From: Bacillota bacterium
Lineage (GTDB): Bacteria > Bacillota > Sulfobacillia > Sulfobacillales > JAIMBI01
Length of the DNA stretch: 35,148 bases
Direction: 5' to 3'
Assembly: GCA_021846505.1 (NCBI GenBank)
Contig: JAJZWV010000001.1
Span: 101,291-136,438 of the forward strand
Shown here: positions 6,500 through 20,280 of the stretch, one piece after another
Layout of the letters: every line of letters starts with the position of its first letter
Position numbering within the stretch: position 1 is the first letter of the stretch
The notes under the pieces: model-generated
Database searches by the model: none
Told to the model about the DNA's origin: nothing
Seen by the model: the letters and a program-made list of their open reading frames with translations, nothing else
Program-made: the position numbers and the translations under genes

Positions 6500-7369
6500 T
6501 CAAACGGAAAACGAGTCGGGCGGTACTCCTTCCTGAGGCGACCCCTGCAGCTCCGCCAGCAGCGACTCTAACTCCGCCAAACTTCCGTAGCGAATGACGA
6601 TGCGTCCCCGCTCCGCGGTCCCGCGTATCGACACCCTGGCTCGCAGCGCCTTGGCCAGCCGGACTTCCGCCGCCTGCAGGTGCACATCCCGCCTGCCCGC
6701 CCCCGGTGCCTCGCGCGGGCCCTCGGGCCGCAGCGCGCCCGCCGCCAGCTGCCGCACGGTCCATCCCTCCGCGGCCGCCCGCTGGGCCAAGGTGGCCCGG
6801 CGCTCCGGCTCCACTGACAAGAGCGCCTTCGCGTGCGCCATCGTCAGGCGCTCTTCTTCAACCAGCACCCGGATCTCGGGTTCCAAGTGAAGCAGGCGCA
6901 GATAGTTCGCCACATGAGACCGTGACTTCCCAACCCGCTCGGCTGCTTCATCCTGCGTCCAGCCAAACTCCTGAATCAGGCGCCGAAACGCCTCCGCTTC
7001 TTCCATCGGATTTAAATCACTGCGCTGCAGGTTTTCCACCAGCGCCACTTCCATGGTCGTCCGGTCGTCCCAGTCCCGCACGCTCACCGGAATGTCCTTC
7101 AGCCCCGCGCGCCGCGAGGCCATCAAGCGGCGCTCCCCGGCAATGAGCTGCCATCCCCCCTCGTGCTGGCGCACCAGCACCGGGTGAAGTATGCCATGCT
7201 GCCGAACCGACTCCGTCAACTCGGCCAGCGCCGCCTCCTCAAAATGGTGGCGCGGCTGAAACGGGTTCGGCTCTATGCTGTCCACCGGCAGGGTTTTCGG
7301 ATCGCCCGCCGCCGTGGCCTCCGGAATCAGGGCCGACAGCCCCCTGCCTAGCCCTCTCGCCTTAGGCAT
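6500..7369 (-). CDS. parB: Chromosome partitioning protein ParB (Spo0J type)
   Basis: A 289-residue ParB. Residues 6-14 carry the GLGRGLSAL element that stimulates ParA ATPase in this family. The CTPase fold has GERR at 78-81 and ENLQRSDLN at 112-120. The helix-turn-helix spans about 138-160. At positions that set DNA specificity (173, 179, 184 and 201 in Caulobacter ParB) this protein has Arg150, Tyr156, His161 and Ala178, so only the first is of the standard set; this may go with the altered parS sites beside the gene. The ATG overlaps the parA stop by 8 bases and has AAGGAGGTGAT upstream, an almost perfect ribosome binding site. Confidence 0.95.
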   Translation of the reverse strand: MPKARGLGRGLSALIPEATAAGDPKTLPVDSIEPNPFQPRHHFEEAALAELTESVRQHGILHPVLVRQHEGGWQLIAGERRLMASRRAGLKDIPVSVRDWDDRTTMEVALVENLQRSDLNPMEEAEAFRRLIQEFGWTQDEAAERVGKSRSHVANYLRLLHLEPEIRVLVEEERLTMAHAKALLSVEPERRATLAQRAAAEGWTVRQLAAGALRPEGPREAPGAGRRDVHLQAAEVRLAKALRARVSIRGTAERGRIVIRYGSLAELESLLAELQGSPQEGVPPDSFSV

Positions 7370-8123
7370 TGGCCATCACCTCCTTTGCCAGCTGCTCATA
7401 AATCATCGCTGCCTTTGACTTTGGGTCGTACTGCGAGATGGGCTGGCCATGACTGGGCGCCTCCGACAGCCGGACCGCGCGCGGCACCACCGCCTGATAC
7501 ACCTTCGCCCCGAAATGGTCCCGCACCTCGCGCGCGACCTGGCCTGACAAATTCGTTCGGGCGTCGTACATCGTCAGCAGCACGCCTTCCACCTCGAGCG
7601 GCGGGTTCAGATGGCGCCGCACCCGCTCGATGGTGGCCAGCAGCTGCGACAGCCCCTCCAGGGCAAAAAACTCGCACTGAATCGGAATCAGCACCGCGTC
7701 CGCCGCGGTCAGGGCGTTGATGGTCAGCAGGCCGAGAGAGGGCGGGCAGTCCACAAACACGTAGTCGTATCGGCCGCGGATCGGCGCCAAGGCCACCTTC
7801 AGGCGCCGCTCGCGCTCGGGGCGCGCCGTGAGCTCCACCTCGGCGCCCGCCAAGTCCAGTGTCGCGGGAATAACATGCAGGCTGGGCACGGGGCTGGCCG
7901 CCACGGCGTCCGCCACCGGCGCGCTGTCCAGCAGCACGTCATAAATCGACGTGTCCTGCGCCTCTTTGGCCACGCCTAAGCCGGTCGTGGTGTTGCCCTG
8001 CGGGTCGATGTCGACCGCCAGCACGCGTTGCCCGGCTTCCGCCAGATACGCCGCCACGTTGATCACCGTCGTGGTTTTGCCCACGCCGCCCTTCTGGTTG
8101 GCCACCGCCAGCACTCGCCCCAC
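7362..8123 (-). CDS. parA: Chromosome partitioning ATPase ParA (Soj type)
   Basis: A 253-residue deviant-Walker ParA ATPase: KGGVGKTTT at residues 11-19, DIDPQGN near 39-45 and the switch motif DCPPSLG near 125-131. It lacks the N-terminal extension of plasmid ParA, as expected for the chromosomal Soj class. It should drive origin segregation with ParB and may regulate DnaA, as Soj does in Bacillus (inference). GTG start with GGAGGGACAGC before it. It sits between noc and parB, the Bacillus-type order rsmG-noc-soj-spo0J. Confidence 0.96.
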   Translation of the reverse strand: MGRVLAVANQKGGVGKTTTVINVAAYLAEAGQRVLAVDIDPQGNTTTGLGVAKEAQDTSIYDVLLDSAPVADAVAASPVPSLHVIPATLDLAGAEVELTARPERERRLKVALAPIRGRYDYVFVDCPPSLGLLTINALTAADAVLIPIQCEFFALEGLSQLLATIERVRRHLNPPLEVEGVLLTMYDARTNLSGQVAREVRDHFGAKVYQAVVPRAVRLSEAPSHGQPISQYDPKSKAAMIYEQLAKEVMANA

Positions 8124-8171
8124 GCTGTCCCTCCGTTGCTCTGTCCATCGTTCCTGCGCCTCGCGCGGAGG

Positions 8172-9059
8172 CTACGCCTTGGGGATCCGCACCCGGATCT
8201 CCCAGTGAGTCTCATCCTCGCGCTGCTCGACTTCGGGCCGGATGCCTTGGCGCGCCAGCGGCTCCAGCGCCTGCCTCACGGTATTGACGAGAATGCGAAT
8301 GTCGCGGATCCGCCCCTGCACCGCACGCCGCGGCGCCGCCTGTGCCCGCTCACCGACCAGCTGCTCCGCCTCCCGCACGCTGAGGCGCCGGCCAGCCATT
8401 TCCATCGCCGCCTCCATGCGCTCGGCTCCGCCGCCGAGCGACAAGAGCGCTCGCGCGTGCCGCTCCGACAGGCCCTCCCGCTCCAGCAGCTCGCGCACCG
8501 GCCGCTCCAGCCTCAGCAGCCGAAGCTTGTTGGCCACGGCCGATTGGCTTTTGCCCACCCGCCGCGCCACGTCCTCTTGGGTCAAGCTGAAATCCCGCAT
8601 GAGGCGGTGATACCCCTCGGCCTCTTCCCAAAACGTCAAATCGGCCCGCTGCAGATTTTCCACCAGCGACAGCACCGCCCCCGTCGAGGCGTCTGCCTCC
8701 ACAAGCATCACGGGCACCTCCACCAAGCCCGCGCGCTGCGCCGCCCGCCAGCGCCGCTCACCCGCCACCAGCTCGTAGCCGGCACCCCGCGGGCGCACCA
8801 CCAGCGGCTCCAGCATCCCGACTTCCCGAATGGACGCTGCCAATTCCTCCAGGGATGCCTCGTCGAAGTACTTGCGCGGCTGGTACGCATTGGGCACCAC
8901 CGCCCGCACCAGCACTCGCCGAAATTCACTCGGCTTGCTCACCCGCCGCCGCCTCCTGCTTCCTTCGTGATCGCTGAGGTCCTGAAGCTTCTCCCTTCGT
9001 TTCCACAGCGGCCCGCGACATCCTGCCCACAGAGCGCTGTTCGGCGGAATTCCCAGCAC
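8172..9059 (-). CDS. noc: ParB paralogue of the Noc type (nucleoid occlusion)
   Basis: A ParB-family protein of 295 residues from the GTG at 9059, with GERRWRA, ENLQRADL and a helix-turn-helix. Its DNA-specificity residues are Gln172, Lys178, Arg183 and Arg200, close to the Noc set Gln/Lys/Lys/Arg and unlike ParB. Gene position between rsmG and parA also matches Noc, which binds NBS sites and blocks division over the nucleoid. Two starts are possible. GTG 9059 follows the rsmG stop with GGAGG five bases before it and gives a Trp/Lys/Arg-rich N-terminus that could act as membrane anchor. GTG 8942 (256 residues) also has AGGAGG six bases upstream and would lack that segment. Confidence 0.88.
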   Translation of the reverse strand: MLGIPPNSALWAGCRGPLWKRREKLQDLSDHEGSRRRRRVSKPSEFRRVLVRAVVPNAYQPRKYFDEASLEELAASIREVGMLEPLVVRPRGAGYELVAGERRWRAAQRAGLVEVPVMLVEADASTGAVLSLVENLQRADLTFWEEAEGYHRLMRDFSLTQEDVARRVGKSQSAVANKLRLLRLERPVRELLEREGLSERHARALLSLGGGAERMEAAMEMAGRRLSVREAEQLVGERAQAAPRRAVQGRIRDIRILVNTVRQALEPLARQGIRPEVEQREDETHWEIRVRIPKA

Positions 9060-9070
9060 CCCTGCCTCCG

Positions 9071-9796
9071 CTACCGCGGCAGCTGGCCCAGCCGCGGACC
9101 CCGGCGGGGAAATTCCTGACCCGACGCCGCGCGTTTTTTGAGCACCACCAGCGCCCGCCGCCCCTCCGCCCCTGGAAGGTCCAACACCTCCACTCGCTCT
9201 GCCTCCGCACCCAGACGCCGAATCAGCGGCGCCGCCTCGCCCAGTTCCCTCTCCCCGGCCGGGCCGCGCATCAGAAGGGCCGTGCCTCCCACCGCGAGCA
9301 GGGGCACCGCTAACTCCGACACGACCGCCAGTGCGCCCGCGGCGCGTGCCACCGCAAACCGAAACGCCCCGGCCCGTGTGGCTGTCAGCGCCTCCGCCCG
9401 CACATTTTCCACCGTGACGTGCTGGAGCCCCAGCGCGGCGGCCACCTCGGACACAAAGCGCGCCTTCTTGCCGACCGAGTCGACCAGCACCCAGGGAGCT
9501 TCCGGATAGAGCGCCGCCAGCACGAGCCCGGGGTAGCCCGCCCCGGTCCCTATGTCCACCGCTGGGCCCTCCCCGCGGTATACGCGCCCGGCTGTCAGGC
9601 TGTCCACCACTAGCCGCACGAACCCCGCGCGCCCCTTCAGAGCCGTCAGGTTCATGACGCGGCCGGCCTCTTGCACCAGCCTCCAGTGCTCCACGATGCG
9701 AGAGAGCGCCTCAGGACCCAAGAGGCTCGGGGAAACCCCGGCCGCTTGCCCTAAGGCGCTCAGCTCCTCGGCGCTGACCGATTCCTCTGTACCCAT
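9071..9796 (-). CDS. rsmG: 16S rRNA m7G527 methyltransferase RsmG (GidB)
   Basis: A 241-residue SAM-dependent methyltransferase with NLTALKGRAGFVRLVVDSL and motif I DIGTGAGYPGLVLA at about 81-94, both hallmarks of RsmG, which methylates N7 of G527 in the 530 loop of 16S rRNA. The C-terminus is slightly extended with a basic tail. It lies between yidC and noc; the mnmE and mnmG genes usually found just upstream in Firmicutes are absent. The stop is 11 bases before the noc GTG. Confidence 0.95.
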   Translation of the reverse strand: MGTEESVSAEELSALGQAAGVSPSLLGPEALSRIVEHWRLVQEAGRVMNLTALKGRAGFVRLVVDSLTAGRVYRGEGPAVDIGTGAGYPGLVLAALYPEAPWVLVDSVGKKARFVSEVAAALGLQHVTVENVRAEALTATRAGAFRFAVARAAGALAVVSELAVPLLAVGGTALLMRGPAGERELGEAAPLIRRLGAEAERVEVLDLPGAEGRRALVVLKKRAASGQEFPRRGPRLGQLPR

Positions 9797-9815
9797 GCCG
9801 CCGGCTCCCTGCGCT

Positions 9816-10511
9816 CTACGTCCTGGTGGCTTTGGCCTTGGGCTTGGGATTGGGACTGGGCGCGTCGTTGGCGATGGGCCGCCGCAGCAGCAGGGACGTC
9901 TGCGCCAGTTGAAACAGGTTGGAGGTCACGTAGTAGATGGACAGGCCCGCCGCCAGCCTCCAGGCCACGTATCCAAACACGATGGGCATCATCCACGTCA
10001 TCATCTTCTGACTCTGCTCCATGCCCGGCTGCGGCGGTGTCATGCGCATGGTCTGCCGCTGCATGAAGTAGGTCGACGACGCCACCAGAAAGGCCAGCAG
10101 GAAGGTGGGGTCTGGCTTGTTCAGATGCTGCCAGACCCACAGTCCGTGACCCGACACGTAGTGAAACTGCTGCAATACTTCAAACAAGCCGTACATGACG
10201 GGCAGCTGAAGCAGCAGGGGCAGACAGCCCGCCGCAGGGTTCGCTCCCTCTTCCTTGTACATGGCCGCAATCTCTTGTTGCAGCTTCTGCGGGTTGCCCT
10301 TGTGCTGCGCCTGCAGCTGCCGCTGACGTGGTGCCAGCTTCGCCATTTTCTGCATGGAGCGGACTTGGGTCACACCCAGCGGGAACAGCACCAGCCGGAC
10401 CACCAGCGTGAACAAAATCACGCCGAGGACGTAGTTGTGCCCCGCCACCCCGGTAAAAAACACAAACGCGGTTGTCAGCAGATGCAGGAACGCTCCCCAG
10501 ATGGCTTGCAT
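9816..10511 (-). CDS. yidC: Membrane protein insertase YidC/Oxa1 (SpoIIIJ-like)
   Basis: A 231-residue YidC of the short Gram-positive type. Hydrophobic segments lie at about 5-22, 28-48, 108-128, 148-165 and 185-205. Arg39 in the first core helix (VILFTLVVRLVLFPL) is the conserved positive residue of the insertase groove, and AAGCLPLLLQLPV is a family motif. No lipobox cysteine is visible near the N-terminus, unlike SpoIIIJ and YqjG of Bacillus. The tail ends in a basic PKPKAKATRT stretch. It follows yidD in the rpmH operon; no jag gene follows it. Confidence 0.94.
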   Translation of the reverse strand: MQAIWGAFLHLLTTAFVFFTGVAGHNYVLGVILFTLVVRLVLFPLGVTQVRSMQKMAKLAPRQRQLQAQHKGNPQKLQQEIAAMYKEEGANPAAGCLPLLLQLPVMYGLFEVLQQFHYVSGHGLWVWQHLNKPDPTFLLAFLVASSTYFMQRQTMRMTPPQPGMEQSQKMMTWMMPIVFGYVAWRLAAGLSIYYVTSNLFQLAQTSLLLRRPIANDAPSPNPKPKAKATRT

Positions 10512-10543
10512 AACCTAAGCGGCCTCCTCCAAGCTTTTGCCCA

Positions 10544-10756
10544 TCATGGCACCGGGTCGTAGCCGCCGGCGTGCAGCGGGTGGCACCGCAGCACGCGCCC
10601 CGAGGCCAGCCACAGCCCCCGTGCCGCCCCATGCTTCTCCAGCGCCTCCACCGCATACGCCGAACACGTCGGGATGTATCGGCAGCTTGGCGGACGACTG
10701 GCTGCAAAGGCTCGTTGGTACAGCGTGATGGCCGCCACCAGCACCTTCACCACCAT
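10544..10756 (-). CDS. yidD: Membrane protein insertion efficiency factor YidD
   Basis: A 70-residue protein with the YidD core: [27 protein letters not shown], followed by [25 protein letters not shown]. The paired cysteines and CHP motif are diagnostic. YidD aids YidC-dependent insertion, and the genes are adjacent. It overlaps neither neighbour: three bases follow rnpA and 32 bases precede yidC. Confidence 0.95.
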
Positions 10757-10759
10757 TCG

Positions 10760-11098
10760 TCACCCCGCGTCCAGACAGTGAGCTTTCTCCAGCAAGCTCA
10801 CAACGGCTCGACACAACTCGTCCCACGAGGCGTCCAACGCACCCACTTTGCCTAAAACAACAACCCGCCGGCCCGGCCGCACGCGTTGTTGAACCTCCGC
10901 GAGCACGGCGCGAAGCCGACGGCGAATCCGATTCCGCTTGACTGCGGTGCCCACGGCGCGTGCGCTGGCATACCCCACCCGCGTCGCCTCACCGGGCGCC
11001 TCCAACACAATCACAACTGCCAAACGATTACGGTAGGACCGGCCCGCTGAGAACGTCCTGCTGAAATCTCGACGGCCCCGGAGCCGCATGACGGACAC
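10760..11098 (-). CDS. rnpA: Ribonuclease P protein component
   Basis: A 112-residue basic protein. The RNR motif VGTAVKRNRIRRRLRAVL at about residues 48-65 is the RNA-binding signature of RnpA, which assists the catalytic RNA in tRNA 5' maturation. GTG at 11098 lies two bases after the rpmH stop; ATG at 11089 is an alternative with no better Shine-Dalgarno. It lies in the classical rpmH-rnpA order. I saw no rnpB RNA gene in the window. Confidence 0.94.
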   Translation of the reverse strand: MSVMRLRGRRDFSRTFSAGRSYRNRLAVVIVLEAPGEATRVGYASARAVGTAVKRNRIRRRLRAVLAEVQQRVRPGRRVVVLGKVGALDASWDELCRAVVSLLEKAHCLDAG

Positions 11099-11100
11099 TG

Positions 11101-11235
11101 CTAGACGGCCAGACGCTTGCGGCCCTTGGCACGGCGGCGATTGAGCACGGCTCGGCCGGCTCGGGTGGACATGCGCCGCCTGAAGCCATGCACCTTGTGC
11201 CGGCGCCGACGATTCGGCTGATAGGTTCTCTTCAT
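11101..11235 (-). CDS. rpmH: 50S ribosomal protein bL34
   Basis: A 44-residue very basic protein, [20 protein letters not shown] followed by [21 protein letters not shown]. This is the near-invariant bL34 sequence. The ATG has GGGGGGTGA about 7 bases upstream. First gene of the operon continuing to rnpA-yidD-yidC-rsmG-noc-parA-parB. In most bacteria rpmH lies directly beside dnaA; here 10.4 kb of accessory DNA separates them. Confidence 0.98.
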
Positions 11236-11269
11236 GTCTAGGTCACCCCCCGCCGCGCAAATCGGCCTA

Positions 11270-11298
11270 ATTATAGCGGGCGAGCCAGACCCGGTCAA
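11270..11298 (-). promoter_or_regulatory. Near-consensus sigma-A promoter of the rpmH operon
   Basis: On the minus strand, -35 TTGACC (11293-11298) and -10 TATAAT (11270-11275) are separated by exactly 17 bases. The predicted start is near 11262, about 27 bases before rpmH. One mismatch from consensus in twelve makes this the strongest promoter in the window, as expected for a ribosomal and replication-associated operon. Confidence 0.9.
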
Positions 11299-11301
11299 GC
11301 C

Positions 11302-11324
11302 GCCGCGGGCACTAGGCCCGCGGC
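11302..11324 (-). terminator. GC-rich hairpin downstream of the penicillin-binding protein gene
   Basis: A perfect 9-bp stem GCCGCGGGC/GCCCGCGGC with a 5-base loop lies 45 bases past the PBP stop and just upstream of the rpmH promoter. There is no T-run after it on the minus strand, so it is either a weak or factor-dependent terminator or an insulating hairpin between the two transcription units. Confidence 0.5.
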
Positions 11325-11369
11325 CATCAGCGCCGTCCGGCCGCTGGCCCGCTGCAGCCGCCCGCCTCC

Positions 11370-13184
11370 CTACGACTTCGGCGGGATCGAGTTGCCCTGC
11401 GGCACGCCGTTGGGCAGATTGTTGGTGACGTAGGGGGCAATGTGCCAGTACCCCATCAGCCACTTGGCAATCTCCCGCCACAGCGGCGCCGCGACCTGCG
11501 CCCCATATATGCCGTTCTTCGGGTGATTGATCATCACGACCATCGCAAAGCGCGGGTTGGGCATCGGCCCATAGCCAGCGTACGACGCGACGTACACACT
11601 GTTCGAGGTTTTGCCATTGACAATCTGTTGAGCCGTGCCCGTTTTGCCGGCCCACGTATACCCCGGCACCTGCACCGGCACCCCGGTGCCATACCCCACC
11701 TCGCGCTCCATCATCACATGCAGGTCATGCGCTACCGTGCTGTCAATGGGCCGGCCCTCCGGCACCGGCCGAAACCGCTTCAGCACCTGGCCCGTGGGCC
11801 CAATGATGGCGCGCCGGATGCGCGGCTTGTACAGCTCCCCGCCGTTCGCCACCGCCGCAATCATCGTGGCCTCCTGGATCGGGGTGACCGCGATGCCCTG
11901 CCCAAACCCGATGGTGGCCAAATCCACCGCATTAACTTGGCTTTCCGGAATGTAGACGCCGGGGCTGCTGCCCGGCAGCCCAATCTGCGCGGGATGGAAC
12001 AGCCCATAGGCTTTCATCATGGCGTACAGGCGCGGGGCGCCCACCCTGAGCGCCACATCCATAAACACCTGATCCGACGACAGCTCCAGGCCGCGCGTGA
12101 ACGAAATCCTCCCCCACCCATTCGGCATCCAGTCATTGATGCGCACGCCGTTGACGATTTTGTACCCCACGGTGTCAAACATGGTCGTGGGCTTCACCAC
12201 GCCCGCCATCAGGCCGGCGGACGCCGTGACCGGCTTGAAGATAGACCCGGGCGGAACAGGGTCCGACACCGCCCAGTCGGTCAGCGTGGCGGGATTCGCC
12301 AAGTAGTACTGGTTGGGATTGAACGTCGGATAGTTGGCCAGGGTGAGCACCGCACCGGTGTTGGGGTCCATGATAATCACGGCGCCGTTGGCTGCGTGCC
12401 ACTTCTTCACCTGAGCGGCCAACAGCTTCTGCACTTCATATTGAATGTTGCTGTCAATCGTGAGCTCTACGCTGCTGCCCGGCTGGGCTGGCTGCTGAGA
12501 CACCGTGGTGGACGGCAGCGGCGTACCGCTGACGTCGGTCGCCACGGTCCAGTGGCCGTTCTGGCCCGAGAGAATCTTGTTGTCCTGGTACTCAATGCCG
12601 GCGAGTCCGGTGCCGGAGGCGTTGACAAAGCCAAGCACCGGCGCCGCCAGCGTCCCGTTGGGATACACCCGGCGCTCGGTGGGCACCAGCGTAATGCCCG
12701 GCAGCTGGCTCGCCTCCGCCTGCAGCACGTGTGCGCGGCGCGGCGACAGATACGGGTCAATCAGGCGATACCAAAGCTGGCCGGATAGGGCGGAGGCCAG
12801 CTGTCCCACCGTGTACGGCAACGTCTTGGCCAGCAGCACCGCCTCCTGGTGCACGAGCCCCGGGTTGTTGGTCATCTTAGCCGCATTGGCAATGGTGCGC
12901 GGCGCGGCGGTGACCGTGTAGGAGGGCTCGTCCACCGCCAGCACCCGCCCATTGCGGTCCAAAATGGACCCTCGCGGTGCCGTCAGCGTAAAGGTGTGCA
13001 CGTGCTCCTGCCGCGCCAGGCCGGCCAAGTAGGCGGACTGCACCACCTGCACGTCCACCAGCCGCCACACCAGCCACCCCACCCACAGCGCCGACATCAG
13101 CATGATGAACAGCGTCCGCCGCCGAAATCGTGAGCGCATGGTTGGATCGTCCCCCCCGGAAGGTGCCGGCCGCCGCTTCCCCAT
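11370..13184 (-). CDS. Class B penicillin-binding protein, FtsI/SpoVD/PBP2 family transpeptidase
   Basis: A 604-residue protein: N-terminal membrane helix about 24-45, dimerisation domain with [17 protein letters not shown] at 71-86, and a transpeptidase domain from about 240. Catalytic motifs are SIFK at 314-317, SSD at 369-371 and KTGT at 514-517. SxN is replaced by SSD, as in PBP2-type enzymes. No PASTA domain follows. It should cross-link peptidoglycan outside the membrane, in elongation, division or sporulation; the subtype is not certain. Start: ATG 13184, or ATG 13139 (GGGGGGGA about 10 bases upstream). It is 58 bases downstream of the hydroxyproline operon and may be co-transcribed with it. 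Confidence 0.9.
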
Positions 13185-13242: not shown

Positions 13243-14004
13243 TCAGCTCAAGACGAATGGCGGCATGGCGCCGGGGCGGTCGTAAAATCGGCGCAGCGCA
13301 ATCAAGTGGGCGCGTGCGCGAAGCGCAGCGCGGCCGTCGCCCTCCAGATGCACGCCGACTGCCAGCTCCGCAGGGCCGGTCCAGTCTCCCGACAGCTCGG
13401 CGGCACCCCACCCCAGCGCCAGCGCGGCCGAGAGAGCTGCCGGCAGGACATCCGCCGGCCCCCGCCAGCACTCGCCGCTGGCCCGGATGCCCACGACGCG
13501 CCGCCGGCCCACATCCGCCACTACCGCCGTCGCGGTTGGACGCCCGGCCTGCTGGCGCATTGCGGCGGCCAGTGCCCCGAGGGCGTCCAGGTGTGCCCAA
13601 TCCAGAGGCATCGGCGGCCGAGAGCCAGCGAGCACCACGGCCCCCAGCGGATCCGGCACCCGATAAAGCCCGCTCAGCGGACCTGGCGCGGGCACCGCCC
13701 GCGCGAGCGCCACCGGGAGCTCCGTGGCCGGGCAATCCCCCTGCTCCCATGCCTGAGCTGCCAAGAGCGCCAGGCGGCCGCTGGCGGAGTCGAGCACCTC
13801 GCCGGCGGCATCCCAAAACACGGGCTCAGCCTTGCGGCTGAGTGCTGCGCCCAACAGCCCAGCAAATCCCCATGGCTCGCACACGCCGCGCCGCCGCGCG
13901 CCCGCCGACAGCTCCCCGGGCGCCCACCCGGGCCGAAAGACCCTGACCGCCTGGCCAGCGACGTGCCAGTCCCAGGCCTCCACCACACTGCCTATCTCCA
14001 GCAT
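13243..14004 (-). CDS. Degenerate proline racemase-family protein lacking catalytic cysteines
   Basis: A 253-residue protein that at first seems unrelated to anything but can be aligned by eye with the racemase encoded just upstream. VVEAWDWHVAGQAVRV matches the start, CEPWGFAGLLGAAL at 42-55 matches YEPRGHGVMSGAVL, the stretch at 62-95 ending GDCPATE matches the catalytic-loop region ending GLLPATE, and the end RPGAMPPFVLS matches the racemase end. Both catalytic motifs are gone: the MCGH position reads LDSASG, and SPCGTGT is replaced by CWRGPADVLP. It cannot do the two-base racemisation, so it may be a regulatory or structural partner, or a decaying gene still open. 29 bases after the racemase, ATG start with GGGGGG upstream. 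The homology is by eye. Confidence 0.6.
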   Translation of the reverse strand: MLEIGSVVEAWDWHVAGQAVRVFRPGWAPGELSAGARRRGVCEPWGFAGLLGAALSRKAEPVFWDAAGEVLDSASGRLALLAAQAWEQGDCPATELPVALARAVPAPGPLSGLYRVPDPLGAVVLAGSRPPMPLDWAHLDALGALAAAMRQQAGRPTATAVVADVGRRRVVGIRASGECWRGPADVLPAALSAALALGWGAAELSGDWTGPAELAVGVHLEGDGRAALRARAHLIALRRFYDRPGAMPPFVLS

Positions 14005-14033
14005 GCCGGCTGGCCCCCCTTGCGTGCCGCTGG

Positions 14034-15038
14034 TCAGGGCACCAGAAACCCTGCCAGCGAATCGTCGGCCTCTTGCACAAACGTGGATTCTCCGTAAAGC
14101 TGCGCCGAGCCCTCCACGGCCACCACCAGGGCGTCAAGCCCGCCCACCTGGGTGGACTCCAGTGCCGTGGCGGTAAAGACGGCGCCGGTGACGCTTTCGT
14201 GCCGAAACGAAGCGCCCAGTGGCAGCTGGCCCGCTGCATGCAGGACGGCCGCCTTGGCGGCCGTCCCGGTGCCGCACGGGGACCGATCGACGCCGCCCGC
14301 CGGCACCACCACCATGTTGCGGACGTCCGCCGCCGAGCTGGAAGCCGGGCCAAAAAACTCGATGTGGGTCAGCCCTTCCACACCCGGAAGGGCCGGATGG
14401 CGCACCGCCCGCATCGGGCTCACGGCGGCCCGGATGGCTTGCGCCACGCGAATCGCCTGCGCTGCGCCGCCCGGCGTCAGCGACACGCCGGCCGCGGCCG
14501 CTTCCACCAGCCCGTAAAAATTGCCGCCCCAGGCAATGTCGAGTGACACCGGGCCCACGCCCGGCACGGCCACCACCACCCCGCGGTGCAGCACAAACGC
14601 CGGCACGTTGGTAAACCGCACCGCCTCCACCACCCCCGCGCGCACGGCGGCCGCGACGCGCACGAGCCCGGCGGGGGTGTCCAGCGCGAGCTCCGTCTCG
14701 GGCTCCGTGGCCGGCAGCAACCCTGTCTCCAAAAGCGCCGTCACCACGCCGATGGTGTCGTGGCCGCACATCGGGAGGTAGCCGCCCACCTCGATGTACA
14801 CCACCCCCACGTCGGCCGCCGGGTCGGCCGGGGGCAGCAGCACAGCTCCCGACATCACCCCATGGCCGCGGGGCTCATACATTAGCACTTGGCGAATGTC
14901 ATCGTGATGTGCTTGGAGCTCCCGCATTTTCTCCAGCATGGTGCGGCCCGGCACCGGGGGCACCCCGGACACAATGGTGCGGGTCGGATTGCCTCCGGTA
15001 TGCGTTTCAATGGTTTGCCACACGCGGGCCCACTTCAC
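14034..15038 (-). CDS. Proline racemase family protein, probable 4-hydroxyproline 2-epimerase
   Basis: A 334-residue protein with both catalytic cysteines of the family: MCGH (Cys91) and DRSPCGTGT (Cys255). Two cysteines exclude the Cys/Thr-type 3-hydroxyproline dehydratases. Neighbours (D-amino-acid dehydrogenase subunits, DapA-like deaminase) make trans-4-hydroxy-L-proline to cis-4-hydroxy-D-proline the likely reaction rather than proline racemisation. GTG start overlapping the stop of the upstream flavoprotein (GTGA). Cytoplasmic, pathway step 1. Confidence 0.88.
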   Translation of the reverse strand: MKWARVWQTIETHTGGNPTRTIVSGVPPVPGRTMLEKMRELQAHHDDIRQVLMYEPRGHGVMSGAVLLPPADPAADVGVVYIEVGGYLPMCGHDTIGVVTALLETGLLPATEPETELALDTPAGLVRVAAAVRAGVVEAVRFTNVPAFVLHRGVVVAVPGVGPVSLDIAWGGNFYGLVEAAAAGVSLTPGGAAQAIRVAQAIRAAVSPMRAVRHPALPGVEGLTHIEFFGPASSSAADVRNMVVVPAGGVDRSPCGTGTAAKAAVLHAAGQLPLGASFRHESVTGAVFTATALESTQVGGLDALVVAVEGSAQLYGESTFVQEADDSLAGFLVP

Positions 15039-16246
15039 GGCCCCACCTCCCGCTCGCTATCCGCCCGATGGCGAAGCCGCGCGGCCCCGAGCCCCGGCTG
15101 AAAGGCAAAGGGCGCGTCGCGCCGCGCCAGCTCCAGGGCACCCTCCGCCTCCCGCCACCGGTCCGCCGGCACGCTGCCGCCCAGATGCGCCACCATGCCC
15201 CAGCCGGCGAGCCGCCCCTGTGCAATCGCCACGCGCGCCGATTCTACGCCCAGTACATTCCCGGCGGCAAACAGGCCAGCCCGCGATGTGGCCAAGCGCG
15301 CCGTCACCAGCGGGACCTCGCCGCCGAGGCCGTCGTAGTGGCCCCGCTGGACCCCTGCCTGCGCCGTCAGCTCCCCTAAGGGCCGGAGCCCTCCCGCCAG
15401 CAGCACGAAGTCTGCTGGCTCCGTCCAGGGTGCCCCGGCGGGGAGGCCCGCCGCATCCACGGACTGCAGCGTGACTGCCTCGACGCAATCGCCACCCTCC
15501 ACCGCCAGCGCCTGCCGCCGCAGCTGGAGGCGGGCGCCCGACACGGCCAGGCCGCCTGGAGGGTAGAGGCGCATCGCCATCCGCTGCCACCCCGCCCGCC
15601 CGTGCAGCAGCCGGGCCACCGGCTGGGCCCAGCGCGGCGCGCCCGCGGCCAGCTCAAACAGCCGATCCCACTGCTGCGGCAGCGAGCCCAGATGCGCCGT
15701 GGCCATGCTGGGCGGCGGCATCACGATGGCCAGCGACTCCACCCCGGCGCCTAAAAGCTCCTGCGCCACGGCAAATCCCAGCGGATTGGTGCCCACGATG
15801 ATGCCCCGGCGCCCAGGCGGAATGTGCCAGCCCTTCCACAGGGTTTGGGCCGCTCCCACCGCCAGCACCCCCGGCAGGGTCCATCCGGGGATGGGCAGGG
15901 GCACCTCGGCGGCTCCGGTCGCTAGGAGCACCGCTCGTCCCACCGCGCCGCCGCGGGCAAGATCCACCTGAAAGCCTTCGGCCGCGGAGCCGGCGATGGC
16001 CTCCACGGAGGTGGACAGGCGCCACTGGACGCCCGGAGCCAGCGCGCTCACCAGCCGGTCCACCTCGTGGGCCCCATCCCACACGGTGGAGCCCAGGCGA
16101 TGCCACTGCGCCCACAGGCGCCCTCCCGGCACTGGCGCCTCATCCACCACCAGGACCGCGTACCCGGCGCGGCTCAGCACGCCCGCCGCCGCTAAGCCAG
16201 CGGGTCCGGCGCCCACCACCACCGCATCAAAGCGCTTCGGGCTCAT
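15035..16246 (-). CDS. FAD/NAD(P)-binding oxidoreductase, alpha-type subunit of D-hydroxyproline dehydrogenase
   Basis: A 403-residue flavoprotein with an N-terminal Rossmann motif GAGPAG at 12-17 and a second dinucleotide-binding region near 140-165 (RRGIIVGTNPLGFAVAQELLG). It resembles the alpha subunit of HcnB or PDH1-type amine dehydrogenases, but stops before the Fe-S BFD-like domain such proteins usually carry at the C-terminus; that domain is a separate gene at 16523-16840. It should pass electrons from the catalytic FAD subunit (16831-18015) via Fe-S centres. Its ATG overlaps the upstream stop (ATGA). Confidence 0.82.
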   Translation of the reverse strand: MSPKRFDAVVVGAGPAGLAAAGVLSRAGYAVLVVDEAPVPGGRLWAQWHRLGSTVWDGAHEVDRLVSALAPGVQWRLSTSVEAIAGSAAEGFQVDLARGGAVGRAVLLATGAAEVPLPIPGWTLPGVLAVGAAQTLWKGWHIPPGRRGIIVGTNPLGFAVAQELLGAGVESLAIVMPPPSMATAHLGSLPQQWDRLFELAAGAPRWAQPVARLLHGRAGWQRMAMRLYPPGGLAVSGARLQLRRQALAVEGGDCVEAVTLQSVDAAGLPAGAPWTEPADFVLLAGGLRPLGELTAQAGVQRGHYDGLGGEVPLVTARLATSRAGLFAAGNVLGVESARVAIAQGRLAGWGMVAHLGGSVPADRWREAEGALELARRDAPFAFQPGLGAARLRHRADSEREVGP

Positions 16247-16530
16247 GGCGCGTCCTCAAACGCGAGCGGAGTAGGCGGCACCTGCCGGCACACCCGCATG
16301 CCGGCCGCCAGCGGCACCAGGCACGCCCGCTGGTCACGCACGCCGTCAATCTCCAGGCGGCACTCAAAGCAGTGCCCGATGCCGCAGTAGAGGCCCCGCG
16401 GCTGGCCGGTCACTTCATTCCACCCGAGCACACGCTCGCCCTGCCCATACAGCACCAGCCCCACGGGCACCCCCAGCGGCCCCTGCCGCTCCTCCCCGTC
16501 GAGCCAGAACCGCACCAGCGGGTTAGCCAT
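16243..16530 (-). CDS. Small [2Fe-2S] ferredoxin-like subunit (HcnA type)
   Basis: A 95-residue protein with a plant-type [2Fe-2S] pattern: GLYCGIGHCFECRLEIDG, then a fourth Cys in QRACLVP (spacing Cys-x4-Cys-x2-Cys-x12-Cys). It resembles the small HcnA-like subunits of amine and imino-acid dehydrogenases. The stop overlaps the alpha-subunit start and the start overlaps the BFD-like gene, so all are translated as a block. Likely electron relay in the dehydrogenase complex. Confidence 0.82.
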   Translation of the reverse strand: MANPLVRFWLDGEERQGPLGVPVGLVLYGQGERVLGWNEVTGQPRGLYCGIGHCFECRLEIDGVRDQRACLVPLAAGMRVCRQVPPTPLAFEDAP

Positions 16531-16840
16531 GTTCCGGCTCCGAACTCTCCGGCAGCACTTGGCCCATCGCCCAGGGCCGCGTGGGGGGGCGCGCAGCTAA
16601 GGCACCCGAGGGATCCCATCCCCAGCTCCGCGCCAGCGACTCCAGCAGCGGCTGGCAGACACGCCCCTGGCACATGCCCATGCCGGCGCGCGTCAGCAGC
16701 TTCAACTGCCGCAGATCGTCAATGGCCCACGCGTTGCGGGCCGCCACCAAGGCGCCCAGCGCCACCGCCTCGCACCGGCAGATGACAGCGTCAACGGCCG
16801 GGGCAGCCGCTTCGGGCCCTCTCGCGCCTGCTACGCCCAC
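16523..16840 (-). CDS. BFD-like [2Fe-2S] protein, detached C-terminal domain of the alpha subunit
   Basis: About 105 residues. ICRCE near the N-terminus and CQGRVC later give the Cys-x-Cys...Cys-x4-Cys pattern of BFD-like [2Fe-2S] domains, with LKLLTRAGMGMCQGRVC typical of the family. In many related dehydrogenases this domain is fused to the C-terminus of the large alpha subunit; here it is its own gene, placed between the beta and gamma genes, as in the four-subunit PDH1 complexes of archaea. GTG start with AGGAGA seven bases upstream, inside the end of the beta gene. Confidence 0.8.
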   Translation of the reverse strand: MGVAGARGPEAAAPAVDAVICRCEAVALGALVAARNAWAIDDLRQLKLLTRAGMGMCQGRVCQPLLESLARSWGWDPSGALAARPPTRPWAMGQVLPESSEPEHG

Positions 16841-18015
16841 TCCGCCGTCTCCTCCTGAAACCGGCCCACCGCCAGCGGCGCCACCGGCAGCGGCGGGGTC
16901 CGCTCCAAAATGAAGTCCCCGATGAGGCGCCCCGTCACGGCCGCCAGCCCGATGCCGTCGCCCTCGTGGCCGGCCGCCACATAAAGTCCCTCCACCCCGG
17001 GCACGGGCCCTACCACCGGCACATGGTCCGGGGTCCAGGGCCTAAGCCCCGCAAAGCCTCGCAGCACCGTGGCGCGCGCCATCCCCGGGTAAAAGCGCAG
17101 CGCCCGCTTGACTATCGCGTGCAGCACGGCGGGATCTGGTTCCGTGTCCATCCCGGCAAACTCGCGGCTGCTGCCCAACACAAAATTGCCCGCCCGCGTG
17201 GGCTCGTACACGAGCGCCACGCCAAATCGCTCGACGTCGGGCGGCACCACCCGCTCGCGGCCAAACTTCGCCATGAGATAGCCAAATTCCATCACTTTCA
17301 CGTCCCCATATCGCGGGCCCTTCGTGCTGACCACCAAGTGGCCGCGCCGGGGGCGGATGGGCAGGCGCACCCCCAGCGGCGCCAAGACGGCCGGCGTCCA
17401 GACGCCGGCCGCCACCACCACCGCATCGGCAACCAGCGCGGTGCCGTCCGCCAAGCCAACGCCGGCCGCGCGCCCCTGCTCGACCCGGATCTCCGCCACG
17501 GGGCTGCGAGCGCGCACCTGAGCCCCTCGATGGCGGCTTTTGGCCAGCAGGGCCGCCACGTACGCCAGCGGGTTCAGCGTGCTGTCCGTCGGCGAATACA
17601 CGCTGCCGGGGACGTCCGCCGCCAAGTCAGGCATCACCCGATGCGTCTCCTCGTACTCCAAATATCTAAACGCCAAGCCCTCGCGGCACTGCGCGTCCAC
17701 CCAGGCGCGCGCGGGCTCTTCCTCGTCCTCGCCGGCCAGCGCCAGATAGCTGCCGGGCCGCCGGTACTCGATGTCTCCCAGGTCGCCCGCCCATTCCCGG
17801 AGCAGGTTTTGGGACAGCATCGCCATCTCCGCCTGGTACCCCGGGTCCTTGTCAATCACCAGCACGTTGCCGTCACAGCGGCTGGACGTGCCGCCCCCCA
17901 GGGGGCCGCGGTCCACCAGCGTCACGCGGACACCGGCGGACGACAGCACGTACGTGACGGCGGCACCAATCACGCCCGCCCCCACGACCACCACCTGCGG
18001 TGCGCGCCCGGTCAT
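16831..18015 (-). CDS. FAD-dependent D-amino-acid dehydrogenase (DadA family), catalytic beta-type subunit
   Basis: A 394-residue DadA/glycine-oxidase-like protein with the FAD motif GAGVIG at 12-17, a central RPRRGHLVVS segment and a C-terminal GLRPWTPDHVPVVGP motif seen in imino-acid oxidoreductases. Expected to oxidise cis-4-hydroxy-D-proline to pyrroline-4-hydroxy-2-carboxylate, passing electrons to the other subunits. The ATG overlaps the deaminase stop (ATGA). The context excludes a hydrogen cyanide synthase as the best call, although the fold is shared. Confidence 0.85.
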   Translation of the reverse strand: MTGRAPQVVVVGAGVIGAAVTYVLSSAGVRVTLVDRGPLGGGTSSRCDGNVLVIDKDPGYQAEMAMLSQNLLREWAGDLGDIEYRRPGSYLALAGEDEEEPARAWVDAQCREGLAFRYLEYEETHRVMPDLAADVPGSVYSPTDSTLNPLAYVAALLAKSRHRGAQVRARSPVAEIRVEQGRAAGVGLADGTALVADAVVVAAGVWTPAVLAPLGVRLPIRPRRGHLVVSTKGPRYGDVKVMEFGYLMAKFGRERVVPPDVERFGVALVYEPTRAGNFVLGSSREFAGMDTEPDPAVLHAIVKRALRFYPGMARATVLRGFAGLRPWTPDHVPVVGPVPGVEGLYVAAGHEGDGIGLAAVTGRLIGDFILERTPPLPVAPLAVGRFQEETAEWA

Positions 18016-18908
18016 TCCGCCGGCAGTGCCGCCAGCGCGGCCCGAATCGCGGCTTGGTGGTGGGGCGCCAGCGGCAGCCGCGGCGCGCGGGTCCCGCCCA
18101 CGTCGTGGCCCCGCTCCGCCATCCCAAACTTAATCGCCTGCACCAGCAGCGGCGTGGAGTCGTAGCGCAGGAGCGGCAACAGCGCCCGATACAAGTCGCG
18201 AGCCGCCTCGAGGCGGCCAGCGCGCGCCAAGTGGTACAGGTGCACCGACTCCCGGGGAATCACGTTGGTCAAGCCCGCAATCCATCCGGTCGCGCCCATG
18301 AGCAAGCTTTCCAGCACCAGGTCGTCGGCTCCCGCCAGCACTTCCAATTCGGTTTGCTCGATGAGGGCGGATATGCGGCGCACATCCCCGGAAAACTCTT
18401 TGACGGCCACCAGATTTTTCAGGTGGGCCAGCGACTGCAACACCTCCGGCGTGAGATCCACCGGCGTGTCGTGCGTGTTGTTGTATGCGATGATAGGCAG
18501 CCCCACCGCATTGAGGGCGGCAAAGTGGGCTTCCACCTCTTCCGAGGTCGGCCGGTACAGCAGCGGGGGCAGGGCCATCAGGGCCGCCGCCCCGTGGTGC
18601 TTCGCATGCGTGGCCCAGTGTACCACCGCGCGCGTGGAGGGAGCCGCCACCCCGACGATGACCGGATGCCCCTTGGCGGCGCCCAGCGCCGTCTCCACCA
18701 CCCGCGCCCGTTCCTCGGCGTCCAGCGACGCGTATTCCCCGCAGGTGCCCGCCACCACCAGCCCGTCCACGCCTTCAGACAAAAGCCAGGCCGCGTGCTC
18801 CGCCAGCCGCCTACAGTCAGGATCCCCTGCCGCATTCATGGGCGTCACCATCGCCACGTAAATTCCAGGAAATCGCGGATCTCCGCTGGGCTTCTCTGTG
18901 TTGGCCAT
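18012..18908 (-). CDS. DapA/DHDPS-family lyase, probable pyrroline-4-hydroxy-2-carboxylate deaminase
   Basis: A 298-residue aldolase-family protein. GTCGEY at 54-59 replaces the usual GTTGE loop, Tyr142 (AYNNT) and Lys170 (VAVKEFSG) are the active-site pair, Lys170 forming the Schiff base. In hydroxyproline pathways this family deaminates pyrroline-4-hydroxy-2-carboxylate to alpha-ketoglutarate semialdehyde. Start ATG 18908 has GGGG about nine bases before it; an upstream GTG at 18926 lacks a Shine-Dalgarno. It is the first structural gene after the regulator, 91 bases away. I see no convincing promoter in that gap. Confidence 0.85.
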   Translation of the reverse strand: MANTEKPSGDPRFPGIYVAMVTPMNAAGDPDCRRLAEHAAWLLSEGVDGLVVAGTCGEYASLDAEERARVVETALGAAKGHPVIVGVAAPSTRAVVHWATHAKHHGAAALMALPPLLYRPTSEEVEAHFAALNAVGLPIIAYNNTHDTPVDLTPEVLQSLAHLKNLVAVKEFSGDVRRISALIEQTELEVLAGADDLVLESLLMGATGWIAGLTNVIPRESVHLYHLARAGRLEAARDLYRALLPLLRYDSTPLLVQAIKFGMAERGHDVGGTRAPRLPLAPHHQAAIRAALAALPAE

Positions 18909-18999
18909 GCTGACCGACCCCTTCACCTAAGTTTTCGCCAAATTCCTGCGGCCGCTCTCCAGGTGCATCGGCCAAGCCTGCCGCCCCCACGGAGCACTG

Positions 19000-19776
19000 T
19001 CACCTAGACCCTTCCTCCTCGGCCGCTGCAACGCCGGTGGTGCGCATCATCGCCTGCACCGCGGCCGCGTTTACCTCTACATGGCTCGCCATCGCGCGCC
19101 GCGCCTCGTCGGCATCCCCCGCCGCCACCGCCGTGGCCACGGCCAGAAGTTGCTGGGCTTGGCCCATCCGCCAGTCGCTGGAGTCCTGATGCACGATGGA
19201 GGCCGACGACTGCCGAAACGCCTCATGCACCGCCAGCATCACGGCCACGCGAATCGGATTTTGGGAAGCGGCGGCCAGCGCTTCGTGAAACTGAATGTCG
19301 CCCGCCGCAAACTCCGGCCAGGACAAGCCAGGGATGGCTGCCCGCCCGCCCAGCTCCGCCGCCAGCGCGGACAGGCGTGCCCGCTCCTTCGCGCTGGCGC
19401 GCTTTGCTGCCCACCACGCGGTCTCCGGCTCAAAGCCGGCGCGAAACTCCGTGAAATCCTGGGCCGTGGCTTCACCGAAGCGAATGAGGGCCAGCAGCGC
19501 CAGGCCCAATCGTCCGGGGTCGGGCTGCGACACAAAGGTGCCGCCGGTCACTCCGCGCCGCACCTGCACCATGCCCTCAGCTTCCAGGCGCCGCACCGCC
19601 TCCCGGATGGTGGCACGGCTCACGCCAAACAGCCGGGCAAGCTCCCGCTCATTGGGCAGCCGCTCTCCCACGGTCAGCGCGCCGGTGGCCACCGCATCTT
19701 GAATCTGCTGTGCCACGCGATCCGAGCCCCGCCGCCGATCCGATGTCTGCACCCCATCGGCCCATTCCTGTGGCAC
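19000..19776 (-). CDS. GntR-family transcriptional regulator (FadR/FCD subfamily)
   Basis: A 258-residue regulator with a winged helix in residues 15-85 (NERELARLFGVSRATIREAVRRLE) and an all-helical FCD ligand-binding domain in 105-240. Such regulators usually repress neighbouring catabolic genes and respond to a pathway acid. It is co-oriented with the hydroxyproline genes and has a promoter with an overlapping palindrome upstream, so autorepression is likely. GTG start with GGGGGTGA upstream. Ligand not determinable; a hydroxyproline-pathway intermediate is the natural guess. Confidence 0.9.
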   Translation of the reverse strand: MPQEWADGVQTSDRRRGSDRVAQQIQDAVATGALTVGERLPNERELARLFGVSRATIREAVRRLEAEGMVQVRRGVTGGTFVSQPDPGRLGLALLALIRFGEATAQDFTEFRAGFEPETAWWAAKRASAKERARLSALAAELGGRAAIPGLSWPEFAAGDIQFHEALAAASQNPIRVAVMLAVHEAFRQSSASIVHQDSSDWRMGQAQQLLAVATAVAAGDADEARRAMASHVEVNAAAVQAMMRTTGVAAAEEEGSR

Positions 19777-19856: not shown

Positions 19857-19886
19857 TTATCATTAAACACGTTGATGCCTTATGAT
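19857..19886 (+). promoter_or_regulatory. Candidate promoter of the CsoR-family gene
   Basis: Plus strand: -35 TTATCA (19857-19862), 18 bases, -10 TATGAT (19881-19886). The transcript would have a leader of about 100 bases before the GTG at 19990, with a G-run at 19886-19891 that could be part of a CsoR-type operator half-site. Divergent from the GntR promoter. Confidence 0.45.
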
Positions 19887-19989
19887 GGGGGGAGGCGGGC
19901 GGATTAGCGGTGGCGCTGCCGCCGCGGAGAGGCGACGACGGGAAGCAACGCGTGAACACTCGGGGAACACGAGGAGGACAAGAACAGCC

Positions 19990-20280
19990 GTGGCGGACAC
20001 ATCACTACAGGTCAAGAGGGAATGGTATTGGGACCCCGGCGATGTGACCCGCCGCCTCCGGCTATTGGCTGGCCAAATCAGAGGCATTGAGGCGATGGTG
20101 GACCGGGGCACACCCTGCGCGGACGTCCTGACCCAGCTGGCCGCCGCTGAAGGCGCCGTCAAGAAAATCACCCGCATCGTCAACGCCTGCGCGGTAGCCG
20201 AGCAGGTCATGGCTGCGGTGCCCGACCCGAAGCCGCTGGACCACACCGTCCGAAAAGCTCTGGAAAACCTTTTGCGCTGA
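19990..20280 (+). CDS. CsoR-family (DUF156) transcriptional regulator with altered sensing residues
   Basis: A 96-residue four-helix CsoR-family protein: DVTRRLRLLAGQIRGIEAMV (18-37), then Cys43 in TPCADVLTQL, which matches Cys36 of M. tuberculosis CsoR. Counting on from that Cys, the positions of His61 and Cys65 are Ala68 and Gln72; a second Cys (67) falls one residue before the His position. A normal Cu(I) site is therefore absent, and the sensed ligand may be different (other metal, formaldehyde or reactive sulfur). GTG start; GAGGAGG lies about 12 bases upstream, a bit far. An in-frame ATG at 19882 falls within the -10 box, so it is not used. Confidence 0.88.
   Translation: MADTSLQVKREWYWDPGDVTRRLRLLAGQIRGIEAMVDRGTPCADVLTQLAAAEGAVKKITRIVNACAVAEQVMAAVPDPKPLDHTVRKALENLLR

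Follow-up and report, generated by a model that had tools for sequence, protein, structure and literature searches.

The DNA examined here, hereafter the window, is a 35,148-nucleotide stretch from a Bacillota bacterium of the class Sulfobacillia. It contains a gene run on the minus strand, headed by a GntR/FCD regulator (19000..19776; Pfam). This gene is followed by a DHDPS gene (18012..18926) and then by the gene for the FAD oxidase subunit of the dehydrogenase, a member of the DAO family (16831..18015; Pfam). Further along lie the genes for a small cysteine-rich subunit conserved across operons (16523..16840; "BFD-like" is a label given to it without a Pfam search), a 2Fe-2S (Fer2_4) subunit (16243..16530; Pfam) and an FAD/NAD(P)-type oxidoreductase resembling a D-hydroxyproline dehydrogenase subunit (15035..16246; Pfam and NCBIfam). 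They are followed by PR1 (14034..15038; Pfam and NCBIfam), an intact proline racemase / 4-hydroxyproline epimerase-like enzyme of 334 aa with Cys91 in an MCGH motif and Cys255 in SPCGTGT. PR1 is the sole Pfam-detectable member of the proline racemase family in this genome. The last gene of the run (13243..14004) encodes a short protein that we refer to as the pseudo-racemase. This set is established as the part of the bacterial trans-4-hydroxyproline pathway that comprises epimerase, deaminase and D-hydroxyproline dehydrogenase.

The operon adjoins a ParA-ParB-RsmG-YidC-RnpA-RpmH run (7362-13184, named by eye), an arrangement typical of a replication origin. A penicillin-binding-protein-like gene borders the operon and also follows the pseudo-racemase gene in three genus mates. 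A small open reading frame on the plus strand (19882-20280), by eye similar to CsoR-type metal-sensing repressors, is divergent from the GntR gene.

The pseudo-racemase gene starts with an ATG 29 bp after the PR1 stop codon, and its product of 253 aa is about 80 residues shorter than proteins of PF05544. An earlier note on this DNA had given these coordinates, length and spacing correctly. It had also described an intact frame with a plausible ribosome binding site; the purine-rich AAGGGGGG (14014..14021, minus strand), 9 nt upstream of the ATG, agrees with this as a putative site. The loss of both Cys motifs, likewise claimed there, was confirmed at the aligned positions. PR1 Cys91 corresponds to codon 73 (Ser; 13786..13788, minus strand), which reads S/S/L among three orthologues; the register here is alignment-dependent, with a gap in one alignment, and there is no conserved Cys at or near this site. 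PR1 Cys255 corresponds to codon 184 (Ala; 13453..13455, minus strand), with A/A/Q among three orthologues. Near the C-terminus, residues 238-241 form an RRFY motif (13282..13293, minus strand).

The relationship of this protein to the racemases was examined by profile comparison and structure prediction. Searches of Pfam and NCBIfam with the pseudo-racemase gave no match at E ≤ 1, including to the PF05544 profile, and its full-length relatives reach the Pfam cut-off. A PDB sequence search and a plasmid tblastn search returned nothing useful. Pairwise BLASTP against PR1 was weak and N-terminal only (E = 0.03), and direct hhalign comparison gave E = 0.08 against PR1 versus 1e-4 against PR2, a second racemase found in related operons (see below). 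Since BLASTP was marginal and the family searches were blank, the likeness by eye on which the earlier note had aligned the protein end to end with the upstream racemase is thin when taken alone. The direct comparison with PR1 was judged too weak by itself as proof of homology and was replaced by a bridge through PR2. Orthologues are present in three related genomes at 54-59% identity, the copy in G002 being cut by a contig end. In genome G049, a PR2 of about 310 aa occupies the equivalent operon position, is 38% identical to the short protein and is still recognisable as a racemase (Pfam E = 2.6e-14). The first hhalign step linked the short family to the G049 PR2 (E = 2.7e-11, 244 columns) and the second linked the latter to full-length PR2 (E = 7e-26, 305 columns).

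An AlphaFold2 model built from the four short orthologues only was of moderate confidence (pLDDT 67, pTM 0.68). Its best PDB matches were hydroxyproline epimerases (Foldseek E = 1.9e-9; Z 18.7 over residues 6-247), and proline racemases were also among the nearest. A second model, led by the orthologue at L005, was too poor for use (pLDDT 42.6), so the structural case combines a single model with the sequence bridge. Structure prediction thus returned a racemase fold rather than a different one, and the pseudo-racemase is predicted, at moderate model confidence, to have the proline racemase / DapF-like fold. Its common descent with PF05544 members is shown by the hhalign chain together with the tree, C-terminal motif and synteny described below. 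The homology that the earlier note had claimed is upheld by this bridge and by the predicted fold, but the direct alignment to PR1 remains marginal.

The changes in the protein extend beyond the catalytic cysteines. Relative to PR1, His93 is replaced by Ser, Asp251 by Trp, and Gly256-Thr259 are replaced as well. The protein has neither the Cys/Cys acid-base pair of catalytic proline racemases and 4-hydroxyproline epimerases nor the Cys or Ser base with an opposing Thr of trans-3-hydroxyproline dehydratases, as its first site is variable and Ala or Gln stands opposite. Cys179, which alone among the Cys residues is invariant in the orthologues, lies off the catalytic positions and is absent from the G049 PR2. 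In a human relative (PMC9309405), dimerisation is assigned to the N-terminal half and the second half moves as a jaw; domain roles for the racemases here were taken from that protein. By this division, the residues of PR1 that are gapped in the pseudo-racemase number 61/177 in the jaw domain, 25/128 in the N-terminal dimerisation part and 1/29 at the C-terminus. By substitution, the N-terminal domain is no better conserved than the jaw. The idea of a kept interface marked by preferential N-terminal conservation was therefore not seen in substitutions, only in the placement of deletions.

These losses bear on the earlier suggestion that the protein binds or senses hydroxyproline. A sensor would suit the bilobed fold, which encloses a ligand cleft in active relatives, and the operon context. 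The suggestion is weakened by the replacement of the substrate-holding, Cys-flanking positions listed above; moreover, no signalling domain is fused to the protein and the operon already has a GntR regulator. We consider a hydroxyproline sensor improbable.

We analysed selection on the gene among its orthologues. The dN/dS values were 0.29-0.38, with 0.57 for the closest pair, compared to 0.09-0.12 for PR1, and dS between orthologues reached about 1.2. Differences at the three codon positions were 0.30/0.26/0.54, third positions changing about twice as much as first or second ones. The pseudo-racemase gene is under constraint, though a looser one than PR1. A functionless relic heading for loss would be expected to evolve faster than the active enzyme and to shrink, as this protein has, and the dN/dS of the nearest pair as well as the existence of an operon free of PR2 (in G763) fit such a relic. 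However, the frame is open in four species (the G002 copy being cut by the contig end), not broken in relatives, at this dS and with dN/dS mostly 0.3-0.4, and altered PR2 proteins elsewhere show dN/dS of 0.09-0.23. A relic is thus unlikely. The earlier note had called the protein a pseudoenzyme, and this description stands: with the fold kept, the catalytic residues lost and purifying selection acting on an open frame in four species, pseudoenzyme status within the proline racemase family is well supported.

The origin of the pseudo-racemase was traced by a class-wide search of 154 genomes. Relatives with the operon carry PR2 downstream of PR1, and either PR2 or a pseudo-racemase lies 3' of PR1 in every operon of the class where the contig allows this to be seen. 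In the tree, the PR1 proteins form one group (100/100) and the PR2 proteins together with the short proteins another (100/100), within which the short proteins join the G049 PR2 at 99/97. A C-terminal RRF[FY] motif is present in 12/12 PR2s and pseudo-racemases of the class and in none of 26 other racemases or 31 more. The trans-3-hydroxyproline dehydratase model was the top-scoring one for four of the six PR2s tested, with no score above its cut-off, and in a 75-row tree the full-length PR2s lie close to dehydratase-type sequences of the Cys-Thr kind, at moderate support (91/69). Judging from the tree, the profile scores and the motif common to PR2s, the pseudo-racemase is an extreme, decayed form of the resident PR2, a lineage nearer the trans-3-hydroxyproline dehydratase branch, rather than a fresh copy of PR1. 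The tree and the profile scores led us to reject a recent tandem duplication of PR1. The earlier description of the protein as a paralogue of the upstream racemase is thus right in that it is a racemase relative, but it belongs to the separate PR2 lineage.

Several features of the related loci were observed in passing. The intact PR2s of the class (L038, L039, L042 and L043) have SPCGSC or SPCGNC at the second site, with an extra Cys three residues past the catalytic one. In G006, an M28-family peptidase gene (L039:7454-8782, minus strand) lies between PR1 and PR2, which suggests the use of peptide-derived hydroxyproline; a gap of similar size is present in G005 (L038). A racemase-family protein at L034 (G037), on a very long branch, has MCGD and RTPSGTG motifs, in which the first Cys is kept, the second is Ser and the His is Asp.

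Loss of catalytic residues from PR2 is not confined to the genus of the window. Within the class, PR2 has both Cys residues in G005, G006, G113, G115 and G118 and lacks one or both in G112 (F/G), G098 (D/S), G049 (C/G) and the genus of the window; the partial PR2 of G097 has Ala at the second site. A wider search extended the tandem arrangement to a second order of the phylum, first to G217 and later to 16 more genomes of that order. Every PR1 of these tandems is Cys/Cys. Four of the PR2s are Cys/Cys as well, six read S/G and four C/Y or C/F at the two sites, and N/C, R/D and D/E occur once each. The D/E protein (G725) is also shortened (44/177 versus 5/123 residues gapped, the former in the jaw), and the jaw domain in this order evolves faster in active and altered copies alike. 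Of the 30 PR2-position proteins in the two Bacillota groups, 21 lack at least one catalytic Cys, as does none of the 28 readable PR1s; these counts are non-independent, and the PR1 of G118 was read in two parts from different contigs. When shared descent and the poor resolution of deep branches are taken into account, PR2 losses number at least four. The altered PR2s with the dN/dS of 0.09-0.23 given above are those of the S/G and C/Y-F groups.

The 75-row tree also placed the pseudo-racemases near the PR2s of the second order. Since the RRF motif is shared with them by PR2s of the class of the window only, we treated this kinship as long-branch attraction. The same tree unites the PR1s of tandem loci in a single clade (100/98), to which the PR1 of G763 also belongs; its operon lacks PR2, indicating that PR1 can work alone and that a partner is not always needed. 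G777, G807 and G815 have a single Pfam racemase match each, and a diverged PR2 can escape Pfam, as in G725. G729 (L127), a relative of the tandem-pair genomes, holds pieces of a racemase with an in-frame TGA, which may reflect decay of the whole locus.

A single base suffices for the dehydratases of this family, and one relative, PhzF, is Cys-free. It is thus conceivable that the pseudo-racemase is still an enzyme, with another chemistry carried out by migrated residues such as the conserved Glu43, Cys179 and Asp207. The four orthologues share Cys179 and other polar residues without exception, and several PR2s retain the first Cys or carry Ser there. Cys-Thr, Ser-Cys and Ser-Thr pairs occur in known members of the family, and activity has been measured for several of these (PMC4113996, PMC4364671). 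On the other hand, the replacements vary by lineage (S/G, N/C, C/Y, R/D, D/E, F/G, D/S and S-or-L/A-or-Q), neighbouring active-site residues are lost too, and Cys179 is missing from the nearest outside relative, the G049 PR2. We regard a different chemistry as unlikely, to about the same degree as a relic. A further alternative is that the protein serves as a subunit or assembly factor of the multi-subunit D-hydroxyproline dehydrogenase and not of PR1, given that it shares the operon with the FAD, 2Fe-2S and DAO subunits in relatives. The DHDPS or peptidase gene shifts between loci, however, and PR2 stays beside or just after PR1, which leaves a dehydrogenase subunit as improbable as a sensor.

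We propose instead that the pseudo-racemase, and PR2 more generally, is a non-catalytic partner subunit of PR1, similar to the prozymes of trypanosomes, where dead paralogues can activate live enzymes (PMC5201418, PMC3663545). The constant pairing, the loss of catalysis on one side only and the persisting selection are together what such a partner predicts. We give this reading, in which physical pairing is inferred, a probability of about 0.5. A partner subunit is a plausible role and the best-supported functional guess, strengthened by the recurrence of live and altered pairs. Proline racemase family enzymes with a described assembly are dimers of one subunit, and a PR1-PR2 heteromer would consequently be the simplest form of the partnership. 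Most likely, the pseudo-racemase would bind PR1 through the dimerisation domain of the family, and the resulting hetero-oligomer may stabilise or tune the epimerase in prozyme fashion. The non-catalytic role of the PR2 lineage may have preceded the loss of catalysis. More tentatively, with a likelihood somewhat short of even, the epimerase in these Bacillota may be a hetero-oligomer of catalytic and non-catalytic subunits. On this view an ancestral enzyme already had a structural role before its descendants repeatedly became non-catalytic, and the pseudo-racemase would be the most reduced of them.

The pseudo-racemase resembles the PF05544 enzymes (proline racemase, 4-hydroxyproline epimerase and trans-3-hydroxyproline dehydratase) in predicted fold, operon context and ancestry via PR2; unlike them, it lacks a catalytic Cys or Ser/Thr pair and other active-site residues and falls below Pfam detection. 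PhzF shares the overall DapF fold and the absence of a catalytic Cys, but in the structural search this isomerase comes after the hydroxyproline epimerases, and it has no operon or sequence link to the pseudo-racemase. With the trypanosome AdoMetDC prozyme and the dead deoxyhypusine synthase paralogue (PMC5201418, PMC3663545) it shares the retention of a dead paralogue beside a live enzyme. Those proteins have a different fold, and heteromer formation and activation are proven for them, whereas both are inferred here and the dead copy derives from a sister subfamily. Members without one or both canonical Cys residues were already noted in network clusters of the proline racemase family (PMC4113996); in the parts of that study available to us, the solved structures were of active Ser-Cys or Ser-Thr enzymes and no live/dead tandem pair was described. 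A search of the open-access literature likewise found no paper on a live/dead racemase tandem pair. The pseudo-racemase is of a known kind, the pseudoenzyme, and its setting appears to be new.

The recurrence of an altered or dead copy beside a live racemase suggests that it is a helper subunit and not junk. If this is true, the repeatedly evolved live/dead pair would bring a racemase that works without a cofactor into the circle of enzyme families with partners of the prozyme type. It would also offer, inside one operon type, a natural gradation between an intact partner and a fully degenerate one, and it would give a name to a protein family that is missed by current profiles.
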